From Flavobacteriales bacterium (GTDB lineage Bacteria; Bacteroidota; Bacteroidia; Flavobacteriales; TMED113): a stretch of DNA of 64,000 nt. The notes under the pieces are model-generated. The model saw nothing but the letters and a program-made list of their open reading frames with translations, was not told the DNA's origin and did no database searches. The DNA lies in NCBI GenBank assembly GCA_002718895.1, contig PBGD01000009.1, positions 1 through 64,000 of the forward strand, in the 5' to 3' direction. Below, in pieces: positions 4,659 to 48,751 of the stretch (position 1 is its first letter; every line of letters starts with the position of its first letter). The position numbers and the translations under genes were made by a program.

Positions 4659-5213
4659 ATGAAAAAAATTAAAACCAATATTAATGGATTATTTATTATA
4701 GAAAATAAAGCATTTAAAGATGATAGAGGTTCTTTTATGGAATCTTGGAATAAAAAAAAATTTGAAGAGATTAAATTATATGCAAATTTCACAAAATCTA
4801 ATATATCAATTTCAAAAAAAAATACAATTAGAGGACTTCATTTTCAAAACAAACCACATGGTCAATTAAAATTTGTTCAAGTTCTCTATGGAAAAGTACT
4901 TGATGTAGTTGTAGATATTAGAAAAGAGTCAAAAACTTTTGGAGAAACTTTCACAATTGAATTGTCTGATTCAAATAATTATGGACTGTGGATTCCTCCA
5001 GGATGCGCACATGGATTTTTATCACTTTTTGATAAGAGTATTTTTTCTTACAAATGTACAGGAGAATATAGACCAAATAATGAGCATACAATTATATGGA
5101 ATGACAAAGACCTTAATATTAATTGGGGAGTTAAAAAACCGATAATTTCTAAAAAAGACAAAAAAGGAATATCATTTAAAAAATATATTGAATCAAAAGA
5201 AATTTATGGCTAA
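4659..5213 (+). CDS. rfbC: dTDP-4-dehydrorhamnose 3,5-epimerase
   Basis: RmlC/RfbC epimerises dTDP-4-keto-6-deoxyglucose at C3 and C5 on the way to dTDP-L-rhamnose. The cupin signatures are present: FKDDRGSFMESW, TIRGLHFQ with the catalytic base His at residue 61, KFVQVLYGKVLDVVVDIR, and LWIPPGCAHGFLSL. Length, 184 residues, is normal. The other rhamnose genes (rfbA, rfbB, rfbD) are not in the window, so either they lie elsewhere or the product feeds another deoxysugar pathway. It is followed by the lytic transglycosylase, whose start overlaps its end. Confidence 0.95.
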   Translation: MKKIKTNINGLFIIENKAFKDDRGSFMESWNKKKFEEIKLYANFTKSNISISKKNTIRGLHFQNKPHGQLKFVQVLYGKVLDVVVDIRKESKTFGETFTIELSDSNNYGLWIPPGCAHGFLSLFDKSIFSYKCTGEYRPNNEHTIIWNDKDLNINWGVKKPIISKKDKKGISFKKYIESKEIYG

Positions 5214-14507: not shown

Positions 14508-15221
14508 ATGTATAGAATATTCATTTATTGTCTTATTCCATTTATAGGGTTCTCACAATGTGAGAACCCTATTTTGGATGTGGCTGTAATTACAGATGAA
14601 GGAGATGATGATTTTCAATTTGTAATTAATCTTTTTTATCAAGGTTTACTTGAGGATCACCCCAATATAAATGATTGCAATAGTCCTAATAACTATACAA
14701 TGTTTCTTCCTAACGATAATGTGCCAAGTGCATCAGTTAGCCAGTTAATTGGACTTACAGGAGATGTTACTGACTATCTAAGTTATTATTTTTATCCTAA
14801 CGATTTATTGCTAGAACCAAATCAAAATTTAACAATTGAAATGATAGATGGAAATAATGCTTTCGTTAATACTTTCACAACTCCACCAACAATAAATAAT
14901 ATAGAAATTTCAAATGTAATCTGTGCTTGTAACGGTCTCATTTACTTAATTGACGATTTAATATGGGCACCAGGAGTAATTAATATTAATGAGCATAGAA
15001 AAACTATATTTACTATAGATCAATCATTAAATATGATCAATTTTCAGTCTATTAAAGAAAAAGGAACAGTTTCTATTATAAATCTTAATGGACAAATTAT
15101 ATTCACCAAAAAATTATCCAAAGAGTCTCAAGTTAAAATACCAAAGTTAAATCAAGGAGAATACATAATTAACTATCAAACAAAAAATAATAATATATCT
15201 AAATTATATTTTTTTAAATAG
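14508..15221 (+). CDS. secreted fasciclin-like protein with T9SS tail
   Basis: The 237 residues start directly after the previous stop (TAA then ATG). A signal peptide (FIYCLIPFIGFSQC) leads to a region resembling a degenerate fasciclin (FAS1) domain, with YTMFLPNDNVP near residue 63 and a conserved-looking end, ICACNGLIYLIDDLIWAP, near 142. The last 75 residues form a T9SS-type tail (VSIINLNGQIIFTKKL, then LNQGEYIINYQTK). Such proteins are exported by T9SS and act at the surface, often in adhesion. A perfect hairpin overlaps the signal-peptide codons. The stop is TAG. Confidence 0.65.
   Translation: MYRIFIYCLIPFIGFSQCENPILDVAVITDEGDDDFQFVINLFYQGLLEDHPNINDCNSPNNYTMFLPNDNVPSASVSQLIGLTGDVTDYLSYYFYPNDLLLEPNQNLTIEMIDGNNAFVNTFTTPPTINNIEISNVICACNGLIYLIDDLIWAPGVININEHRKTIFTIDQSLNMINFQSIKEKGTVSIINLNGQIIFTKKLSKESQVKIPKLNQGEYIINYQTKNNNISKLYFFK
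14544..14575 (+). terminator. perfect 13-bp hairpin with T tract inside a gene start
   Basis: ATAGGGTTCTCAC and GTGAGAACCCTAT are exact inverse complements separated by the three-base loop AAT, and TTT follows at 14573-14575. The hairpin begins 37 bases after the stop of the hydrolase-like gene. It has the form of an intrinsic terminator, but it lies inside codons 13-22 of the fasciclin-like gene. It may limit expression of the downstream gene relative to the upstream one. It is the most GC-rich perfect hairpin I noticed in the window. Confidence 0.7.
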
Positions 15222-27612: not shown

Positions 27613-28161
27613 ATGAAAATTGAAATTTCTGCTGGAACCATATTAATATCAAAGCCTTTCATGGAAGACAAACGCTTTGACAAAACAATTATTTTACTAA
27701 CACAGCACGATGAAGAAGGAACTATTGGACTAATTATTAATAGACTGTGCTTATTTAATCCAAAAGACATTATCCCTGAATTAAATTCATTTAATATCAA
27801 AATTAAAGAAGGGGGACCTGTGGAAAAAGATAAATTATTTTTTATTCATAAACACCCCAACATTATAAAAGATTCAAAAAAAATAAAAAATGAATTGTAT
27901 TTTGGAGGAGATTTTGACAAATTAATTAATGGCATCAACCAAAAACAAATTCTAGTTGATGATGTTCTTTTTTTTATCGGGTATGCAGGTTGGGATAAAT
28001 ATCAATTAAATGATGAAATCCAAGACGGATCTTGGATTTTATATGAAATTAATGATTTAAACAAAATATTCAAACAAATAGATTGGTCAAGTACTTTAGT
28101 TGAAATTAATCAAGAATACAAAGTGTGGGCAAATGCACCTACAGACTTTCACTTAAATTAG
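27613..28161 (+). CDS. YqgE/AlgH family protein
   Basis: The 182 residues match the YqgE/AlgH (UPF0301) fold throughout: SAGTILISKPFMEDKRFDKTI at the start, LTQHDEEGTIGLIINRL, KEGGPVEKDKLFFIH, ELYFGGDFDKL, and FIGYAGWDKYQLNDEI with GSWIL. The biochemical role is unknown; in some pseudomonads AlgH affects alginate production. It ends with TAG, overlapping the end of the convergent aminotransferase gene by 9 bp. Confidence 0.94.
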   Translation: MKIEISAGTILISKPFMEDKRFDKTIILLTQHDEEGTIGLIINRLCLFNPKDIIPELNSFNIKIKEGGPVEKDKLFFIHKHPNIIKDSKKIKNELYFGGDFDKLINGINQKQILVDDVLFFIGYAGWDKYQLNDEIQDGSWILYEINDLNKIFKQIDWSSTLVEINQEYKVWANAPTDFHLN

Positions 28162-31552: not shown

Positions 31553-32710
31553 ATGACATTCCCTACAATTAGTCATTTAATTGAAAGTATTATTGGAATT
31601 TACATTCCATTACCAATTCAAACCTTTGGATTCTTTATTGTTTTAGCATTCATTATTGGACATTATTATATTAATAAAGAATTTAAAAGAATGGAAAAAA
31701 TGAATATTTTCAATCCAATAAAAATAGAATCATCTAAATCAAAAACGACACTAATTATTGATTATATTTTCAATGGGCTGATGAGTTTTTTATTTGGATA
31801 CAAGATTACATATATAATCGCAAATTATAATTCATTTTCAATAGAACCTCAAAAACTAATCTTAAATTCTGAAGGAAATCTATTATTAGGTTTCATTTTT
31901 TTAACAATTAGTATCATTTACATAAACTACACATCAAAAAAATCAGATTTTTCAACCACTAAATTAATAACCCCCTCAAGCTTATCCTTAAATTTTATAT
32001 TTGTTGCAGCTATAAGTGGTATAATAGGTGCAAAACTCTTCTCTGTGTTAGAAGATTTTAATTATTTTATTCAAAATCCTATTCAAGCATTATTTTCTTT
32101 TAGTGGATTAACATTTTATGGTGGCCTTATATTAGGAACAATTTGCACAATTCTTTATGCTCGTAAATATAACATACCTATTTCTAAACTTGCTGACGTA
32201 TTTGCTCCTTCTCTCATTTTATCATATGGTATAGGTAGACTAGGTTGTCACTTTTCTGGCGATGGAGACTGGGGAATTGTTGCTAATTTTGATAATAAAC
32301 CTATATTTTTTCCTGATTGGTTATGGGGATATAATTTTCCAAGAAATGTAATTGAAACTGGAATAAAAATAAATGATTGTGTCGGAAAGTATTGTTATGA
32401 ATTACCTCAAGCTGTTCATCCTACATCTCTTTATGAAGCAATTTTTGGTATTTGTGCATTTCTTCTTCTTTGGAACATACGAAAAAAAATTCATACACCT
32501 GGTGTATTGTTTTCAATATATCTAATTATTAATGGCATAGAAAGATTTTTAATTGAAACAATCAGAATCACAGATAAATATATGTTTCTAAATTTCAATT
32601 TAACTCAAGCACAAATAATTGGAATTGGTATTGTAATTATTGGACTATCAAGTATAATTTATTTAAATAGGTCGAAGTTCTTATGGATTTATCTAAAAAA
32701 CAAAGCCTAG
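31553..32710 (+). CDS. lgt: prolipoprotein diacylglyceryl transferase
   Basis: Lgt transfers diacylglycerol from phosphatidylglycerol to the lipobox cysteine of lipoproteins; several such substrates lie in this window (BamD, PPIases, DPP III). In 385 residues there are about seven membrane segments and the family motifs FYGGLILGTICTIL, the Lgt signature YGIGRLGCHFSGDGDWG (~225), HPTSLYEAIFG (~290) and INGIERFLIETIR (~325). The N-terminal insert with a charged loop (30-65) is longer than in Escherichia coli. The stop is TAG and the next gene overlaps by 28 bp. Confidence 0.95.
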   Translation: MTFPTISHLIESIIGIYIPLPIQTFGFFIVLAFIIGHYYINKEFKRMEKMNIFNPIKIESSKSKTTLIIDYIFNGLMSFLFGYKITYIIANYNSFSIEPQKLILNSEGNLLLGFIFLTISIIYINYTSKKSDFSTTKLITPSSLSLNFIFVAAISGIIGAKLFSVLEDFNYFIQNPIQALFSFSGLTFYGGLILGTICTILYARKYNIPISKLADVFAPSLILSYGIGRLGCHFSGDGDWGIVANFDNKPIFFPDWLWGYNFPRNVIETGIKINDCVGKYCYELPQAVHPTSLYEAIFGICAFLLLWNIRKKIHTPGVLFSIYLIINGIERFLIETIRITDKYMFLNFNLTQAQIIGIGIVIIGLSSIIYLNRSKFLWIYLKNKA

Positions 32711-46180: not shown

Positions 46181-47848
46181 TCAAATATCAAGCATTTTTT
46201 TTGCATTAGCAATAGCTTCATTATTTAAATGATCACCACTTAACATTCTAGCAATTTCATTAATTCTTGATTCAGAATTTAATTTTTCAATTTTACTTTC
46301 CATAGAATTTGCATGTTCATTTTTTGAAATTTTATAATGATGATTACCTAATGAAGCAATTTGAGGAGAATGAGTAATACATATTACTTGTCCTTGATTT
46401 GATATTTTTCTTAAAATTCTCCCCATTTTCCTTCCAATATCACCTGAAACACCAGAGTCTATTTCATCAAAAATAATTGTAGAAAATTTATTAACTGAAA
46501 ATAAATAGGTTTTTAACAAAAGCATTAACCTTGCCATTTCACCACCAGAAACAATTGACGATAATGGTTTTAAATCATGCCCTTTGTTAAAAGATAACAT
46601 TAGCGATATCTTGTCATTTCCATTTATTAATAAATCTACAGATTTATCAAAAATAAATTTTAAATGACAATAAGAAATGCCTAAATCAGATAAGTCATTT
46701 TTTAAAAGTTCTATAATATAATTACTAGATTTTTTTCTATAAAAAGTCAAACTATTTACACAATTAATTAGTTTTTCATGCAAATTGTTCATCTCATTTT
46801 TTAAACAATTAATATCATTAGAAGCATTTTCAGCTGTAAAAACCTTTGTTTCTATATCTTTTACTTTTAAAATAAGATCATCGACAGAATGAACGTTTAA
46901 TTTGATTTCTAATGAATTAATTTTATTAAGAATATTTTCTAAAAAATGAAATCTTTGTGCATCATATGACAGATTATTATTTAAATTATTAAGATCTAAT
47001 ACTACATCTTGAATATCTACACTATTTTCTTTTAACCTAGCATTTAAAGCATCTAAGTTGGTATCATAACCTTTGACTGTATTCAAATTACTAATAGATG
47101 AATTTAATTTAGAAATAATAGAATTTTCAGATTCCTCTAGTAAATAAATAGATTCAGATATAGTTGATTTTATTTGGTGAAGGTTTGATATTAATTTTAA
47201 TTCATTTTCATATTTTATTTTCTAGGATAAATCATTACTAATCTCATTAAATTCATTAATTATATTCTTGTAATAATCTAAATTAATATCCTGATGGATA
47301 TAACGTTTTTTGTCTTCAATTTTAGATTTAATTTCAATATAATGATGAAATAGTGTTTTATAATCTGACAGAATACTTCTAAAATCCGTGAAACTTGTTG
47401 CACAAAATTGATCCAGTAAATTTATTAGAAAGATATTATTAGTTAATAGTAAGTTTTCATGTTGTGAATGAATATCTACTAATGATAGACTTAATTTTTT
47501 TAACACATCAAGTTTTACAGGTGTATCGTTAATAAAAATTCTTGATTTACCTTGAAAAATAAATTCTCTTCGAATAATAATTTCTTTATCAAAGTCCAAG
47601 TCATATTCCGATAATTTTTTTTTCATTTCATTATTGGACAATATAAATTCACCTTCAATAATAGATTTTCTAGACTTATCTTTAAAATTTATTGATTCAA
47701 ATCTTGAACCTAAAAGCAGATTTAAAGCACCCAAAATGATGGACTTGCCTGCACCTGTTTCTCCAGTAATAGTAGTAAATCCTTTTTGAAATTTTATTTC
47801 TAAACTGTCAATTATTGCATAGTTTTTTATAATAATTTGTTTTATCAT
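46181..47848 (-). pseudogene. recN: recN interrupted by one in-frame TAG
   Basis: The minus-strand frame runs 556 codons including the final stop, the usual length for RecN, an SMC-like ATPase in double-strand break repair. It is interrupted only at codon 209 by TAG (47224-47222). The N-terminal 208 residues have Walker A TITGETGAGKSIILGALNLL and VDIHSQHENLLL. After the TAG, 45 sense codons in the same frame lead into the C-terminal part, which keeps SGGEMARLMLLLK, Walker B STIIFDEIDSGVSG and ITHSPQIASLG. No frameshift is needed. It may be a recent nonsense mutation, a sequencing error or a readthrough site. A TTG at 47086 begins the longest alternative C-terminal frame. Confidence 0.88.
47222..47224 (-). 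other. in-frame amber codon within recN
   Basis: The fwd-strand CTA is TAG in the RecN frame, context TCC TAG AAA. It falls in the helical coiled-coil arm just after NEISNDLS, not in a motif. One base change would restore a sense codon. TAG is an ordinary stop elsewhere in this window (lgt, yqgE, and the gene ending at 15221), so reassignment of TAG is excluded. Confidence 0.9.
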
Positions 47849-47854
47849 AAATCA

Positions 47855-48751
47855 CTATTGAGAAGTTAAAATTTTTGACCACTTTTGTGAATTTTTTACT
47901 GACATTTGATTTAGTAAATTAACTAATTCATCTGCTTGCATAATTGTTCCTTTTGAAAAAATATTTACAATTTCATCAGTTTTAGTATCAAAAAATATTT
48001 GAAACAAATAGCCACGTGGTCTTTGATTATAAGATGTACGAAGTGACAAAATAGATTCCGCAATATATTCTCTAACAAACTCGGGCTTTTCAGTAAATTG
48101 ATCAAGACCTTCAAGATGATATTTGTAATAAAAATTTCTAACATTTGCAAAATCAGGATTCAATAAATTCTCCACCAACCAATATCTATTACTTAATCCT
48201 TCAAATGATTTCCACCCAGTAGCATTATTATCATTTTGTGCATTTGAAACTATTTTTTGTGCTTTTAAGAAAAAATTCTCACCACCTTTGTTAGAAAATG
48301 TATCATAATCCATTCCAATAATTAAATAAGCATAAAATGCAAGAACAGATGTTAAATTTGATATATGTGTATTTTCATTAAACTCTAATGTTTCAAATTC
48401 AATATATTTAAATCGAAATTGATCATCAAAAATATTTAGAATAGGACTATTATATAAAGTTTTATAAATTGGACGAGAAGATTGAACAGAAATTGAACCT
48501 GAAAATTCATCTGTAGATATTTGTTGATCTAATCTAATTAAAATAGTACATTCAATCCTCTCCTCATTATCAAAAATATCATTTGTCCAATTAGTATTAT
48601 TCATGAATTCATAAATACTTTGACGCATTGAATTAAACATTTCTTTATTTGGGCTAGAAATTGAAGAATAATTTACACTAACCTTACAGTTTAATTCTTG
48701 AGATATTAAAATATAATGTGACGATAATATTAAAAAAATAATCAATCTCAT
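47855..48751 (-). CDS. DUF4835 protein, PorD-like
   Basis: The 298 residues start with a signal peptide (LIIFLILSSHYILISQ), then ELNCKVSVNYSSIS, RLDQQISTDEFSGSISVQSSRP, and the conserved YLIIGMDYDTFSNKGGENFFLKAQKIV block that I recognise from DUF4835. That family includes PorD, a protein required for gingipain-type secretion and predicted to act in the envelope. Its place between coaBC and recN is the usual one in Bacteroidota. The 4-bp overlap with coaBC indicates cotranscription. The molecular role in T9SS is not settled. Confidence 0.85.
   Translation of the reverse strand: MRLIIFLILSSHYILISQELNCKVSVNYSSISSPNKEMFNSMRQSIYEFMNNTNWTNDIFDNEERIECTILIRLDQQISTDEFSGSISVQSSRPIYKTLYNSPILNIFDDQFRFKYIEFETLEFNENTHISNLTSVLAFYAYLIIGMDYDTFSNKGGENFFLKAQKIVSNAQNDNNATGWKSFEGLSNRYWLVENLLNPDFANVRNFYYKYHLEGLDQFTEKPEFVREYIAESILSLRTSYNQRPRGYLFQIFFDTKTDEIVNIFSKGTIMQADELVNLLNQMSVKNSQKWSKILTSQ

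Follow-up and report, generated by a model that had tools for sequence, protein, structure and literature searches.

The 64,000-nucleotide stretch of DNA that was analysed (the window) carries a recN gene on its minus strand at 46181-47848, in a single frame of 555 codons that is open but for a TAG at codon 209 (47222-47224). The translation runs from M1 to I555 and a terminal stop and contains exactly one internal stop, as the first-pass annotation had read it. Six bases before the recN ATG lies another TAG (47857-47855), which ends an upstream open reading frame of 298 residues (47855-48751, minus strand) pointing in the same direction. The internal stop divides recN into an N-terminal part of 208 residues (47225-47848, minus strand), comprising the Walker A domain and the start of the coiled-coil arm, and a C-terminal part of codons 210-555 (46181-47221, minus strand), which holds the rest of the coiled coil, the signature motif and Walker B. 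All three motifs, which had been described as intact on either side of the stop, can be read (Walker A, GETGAGKS; signature, SGGEMAR; Walker B, TIIFDEIDSG). With the TAG read as Glu, TIGR00634 (RecN) matches residues 1-554 with an E-value of 6e-111 and a score of 372 bits, below the curated cut-off of 407.85 and so below the formal equivalog threshold. It is nevertheless by far the best family for the joined product, the best structure match is a PDB RecN, and each half of the split frame matches RecN separately. No second recN was found in the source genome, from an uncultured member of the Bacteroidota, in which the gene is single-copy. The locus is the recN gene, but as assembled it does not encode a complete RecN product as one continuous polypeptide.

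Coding sequence continues downstream of the TAG: the in-frame codon log-likelihood is -3.36 for codons 210-254 and -3.56 for codons 1-208, compared with about -5.0 in the other forward frames. Because this codon-usage signal is unbroken through codons 210-254, the open frame resumes at the codon that follows the TAG rather than at the TTG at 47086. The 45 sense codons that had been placed between the stop and the next open stretch do separate it from this TTG, the first in-frame ATG, GTG or TTG, but they belong to a frame that is open directly after the stop. The lone TAG is more than chance, since the two halves of one conserved protein that meet there share a frame, and the residue aligned to it is conserved.

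A decayed pseudogene would be expected to look different, as had also been argued at first pass: no further lesion was found in the 555 codons. At 100 near-invariant RecN columns the source protein departs 5 times before the stop and 9 times after it, and eight intact family members depart 3-11 times before and 5-10 times after the same position. Upstream of the stop identity to outgroups is 0.393 and downstream 0.328; both values fall inside the span seen in the relatives. Judged by these comparisons, recN has spent no measurable time evolving free of constraint. The rest of the gene shows no decay relative to intact relatives, and so the change is either very young or not present in the cell at all.

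The residue aligned to the TAG is strongly conserved. Among the 90 Bacteroidota homologues that have a residue at this position, 86 have Glu, two Gln, one Asp and one Asn; the relatives' Glu codon is GAA in 56 cases and GAG in 30, and GAG makes up 20% of the Glu codons in the source genome. The simplest origin would be a single G-to-T change from GAG (Glu209) to TAG, where the ancestral base is one that we infer. The counterpart of the stop in Deinococcus radiodurans RecN (structure 4AD8) is a Glu, residue 228 of the chain, and falls in the coiled-coil region covered by structure 4ABX, so that the lever arm is cut and both ATPase motifs are untouched.

The source genome is the only member of its genus, and its nearest full-length RecN homologues are about 49% identical. 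All 12 genomes of the family have recN, whole or as contig-end pieces, and none of the other 11 has an internal stop. An order-level search of 398 genomes gave a recN match in 316, and no other internal stop occurs among the roughly 150 matches listed. No viral contigs were found. An alignment of relatives at codon 209, which had been proposed as a check, thus finds a sense codon throughout, with the source genome alone differing. This is one half of what had been put forward as counting against the first-pass annotation; the other half, that this genome is in error, is weighed below. Apparent frameshifts split recN early in the coiled coil, around codons 173-196, in Flavobacterium covae (L018, near 4869-4881) and Hoylesella pleuritidis (L080, near 4902-4950). 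They are unrelated to the TAG described here and are possibly sequencing errors.

Four explanations had been offered for the stop: a recent nonsense mutation, a consensus error, readthrough and two reassembling polypeptides. The first two hold up and the last two gain no support. In favour of two separately translated pieces that would rebuild the ABC ATPase by way of the coiled coil, the TAG falls within that arm and separates the Walker A half from the Walker B half. However, with the first restart codon 45 codons on, such a pair would lack 46 residues of the arm, and no relative with recN split at codon 209 was seen among the family genomes, the aligned homologues or the order-level matches listed. 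We regard this arrangement as the least probable of all.

Programmed or tolerated readthrough, which would yield some full-length RecN, could draw on the intact frame, motifs and codon usage on both sides of the TAG, yet it is scarcely more probable. The stop is not conserved at this codon in relatives, occurring only in the source genome among those compared and at a near-invariant Glu. TAG is an ordinary stop here: it ends 176 of 1142 long open reading frames (about 15%) in the source genome, including the gene just upstream of recN, and the examples cited at first pass (32708-32710, 28159-28161 and 15219-15221) do end frames of 403, 191 and 237 codons. Two proteins of the RF-1/RF-2 family are present, with open frames of 356 and 382 residues. 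ARAGORN detected 30 tRNAs and a tmRNA but no tRNA with anticodon CUA in this 85% complete assembly, which likewise gave no sign of a suppressor tRNA or a reassigned TAG. The 120 nucleotides from the stop form no notable structure, folding at -5.7 kcal/mol against -9.6 kcal/mol in codon-shuffled controls, and are hence less structured than these. Programmed use of the stop finds no support in these sequence features. Even taken together, readthrough and split function seem improbable, and that either of them provides RecN as a lineage-specific novelty is slightly more improbable still.

We are therefore confident that the TAG is an isolated, non-programmed one-base nonsense substitution in an otherwise normal recN. 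The frequency of such stops was gauged by reciprocal tblastn between nearly all of the source genome (G000; 34 contigs, 1.34 Mb) and nearly all of a sister-family metagenome-assembled genome (MAG), G008 (20 contigs, 1.50 Mb). Among 980 queries with a match, some three nonsense interruptions in the source genome are credible: recN (TAG), C2:26693 (TAA), in what we take to be a MeaB/ArgK-like GTPase, and C25:12367 (TAG), in a presumed DUF1015-like protein. There is one credible frameshift, C16:7260, near a run of A. Stops arise from 5.5% of random substitutions; if all three stops were errors, some 54 bases in 1.04 Mb would be wrong (about 5e-5 substitutions per base). The comparison revealed no stop in an essential gene of the source genome, and its three or so interrupted genes all look dispensable.

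Several other apparent interruptions were set aside. Some, for example C6:33874 and C6:26543 of G008 against C31, come from a query that is probably a spurious open reading frame containing several stops; others lie ahead of the genuine start codon; and in gyrB of G007 and G009 the additional TAA stops vanish once the query begins at ATG. Two further features of the source genome were seen. At C19:24144-26312 (minus strand) an in-frame fusion joins two adjacent genes, by our reading one for a cytochrome-like protein and one for a membrane protein; where G008 has a TAG between the two, the source genome has TAT, which is either an error or a real stop loss. Two RuvB-like genes (C19:20123-21250 and C20:3333-4364) match the same place in G008, possibly because of contamination, which is estimated at 4.5% in this bin.

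G008 itself has about 15 mid-gene stops. Its lone in-frame stops include C17:22352 (TAG), C6:34893 (TAG), C6:39015 (TGA) and C5:37862 (TAA), in genes that, judged from their sequence, are probably gyrB, rpsC, fusA and ruvB; these four lie mostly at Glu or Gly codons, consistent with a G-to-T signature of consensus errors. Loss of GyrB, ribosomal protein S3 and EF-G at least is hardly tolerable for a living cell, and gyrB is intact in the congeners G007 and G009. On this comparison the lone stops in indispensable G008 genes must be consensus errors, and this shows that isolated stops occur as such errors in MAGs of this group. By manual tally 8 of the 15 fit a G-to-T change at a Glu or Gly codon, compared with 17% expected (binomial p of about 0.001), an excess that recalls the sequencing artefacts left by oxidative damage. 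The recN change fits the same type. This pattern raises the probability of an error in recN without proving it, because the source genome is cleaner than G008 and no essential-gene stop was found in it.

Of the two origins we slightly favour a consensus error in the metagenome assembly, to which we give about even odds; the cell would then make normal RecN. The G-to-T excess, however, sits in another MAG, which may not share its provenance with the source genome, and the finding of stops in dispensable-looking genes and in no essential gene of the source genome fits real gene loss too. A real stop, somewhat short of even odds, would be a recN null allele of very recent origin that has reached fixation or become common in the sampled population: translation would end after residue 208, the truncated protein without Walker B would be non-functional, RecN function would be lost and double-strand-break repair would run without it. 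recN mutants of model bacteria are viable. The gene can evidently be lost, since no recN was found in 57 of the 300 genomes in the order-level search with completeness of 90% or more and contamination of no more than 5%, and the unmatched genomes listed are mostly reduced (0.3-0.6 Mb). Against a null allele stand the retention of recN in every genome of the family, the lack of even one additional lesion and the G008 stops that must be errors. If the stop is real, it would record RecN loss in a small-genome lineage.

The lone stop in recN was read correctly but is ordinary. Lone in-frame stops form a background in MAGs that reaches even gyrB and ribosomal protein genes, and it must be subtracted before any claim of recoding or of split proteins. 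Compared with RecN, the SMC-like DNA repair ATPase (TIGR00634; Deinococcus radiodurans 4AD8, 4ABY and 4ABX), the source protein shares the full-length match, Walker A, the signature and Walker B, and differs in its one internal TAG. With the single-base nonsense errors or young alleles found in MAGs, such as those in gyrB, rpsC, fusA and ruvB of G008, it shares a lone stop with no frameshift, conserved flanks and absence of the stop from relatives. It differs from them in that many bacteria can do without recN, which leaves room for a real allele in this case but not in gyrB or rpsC.
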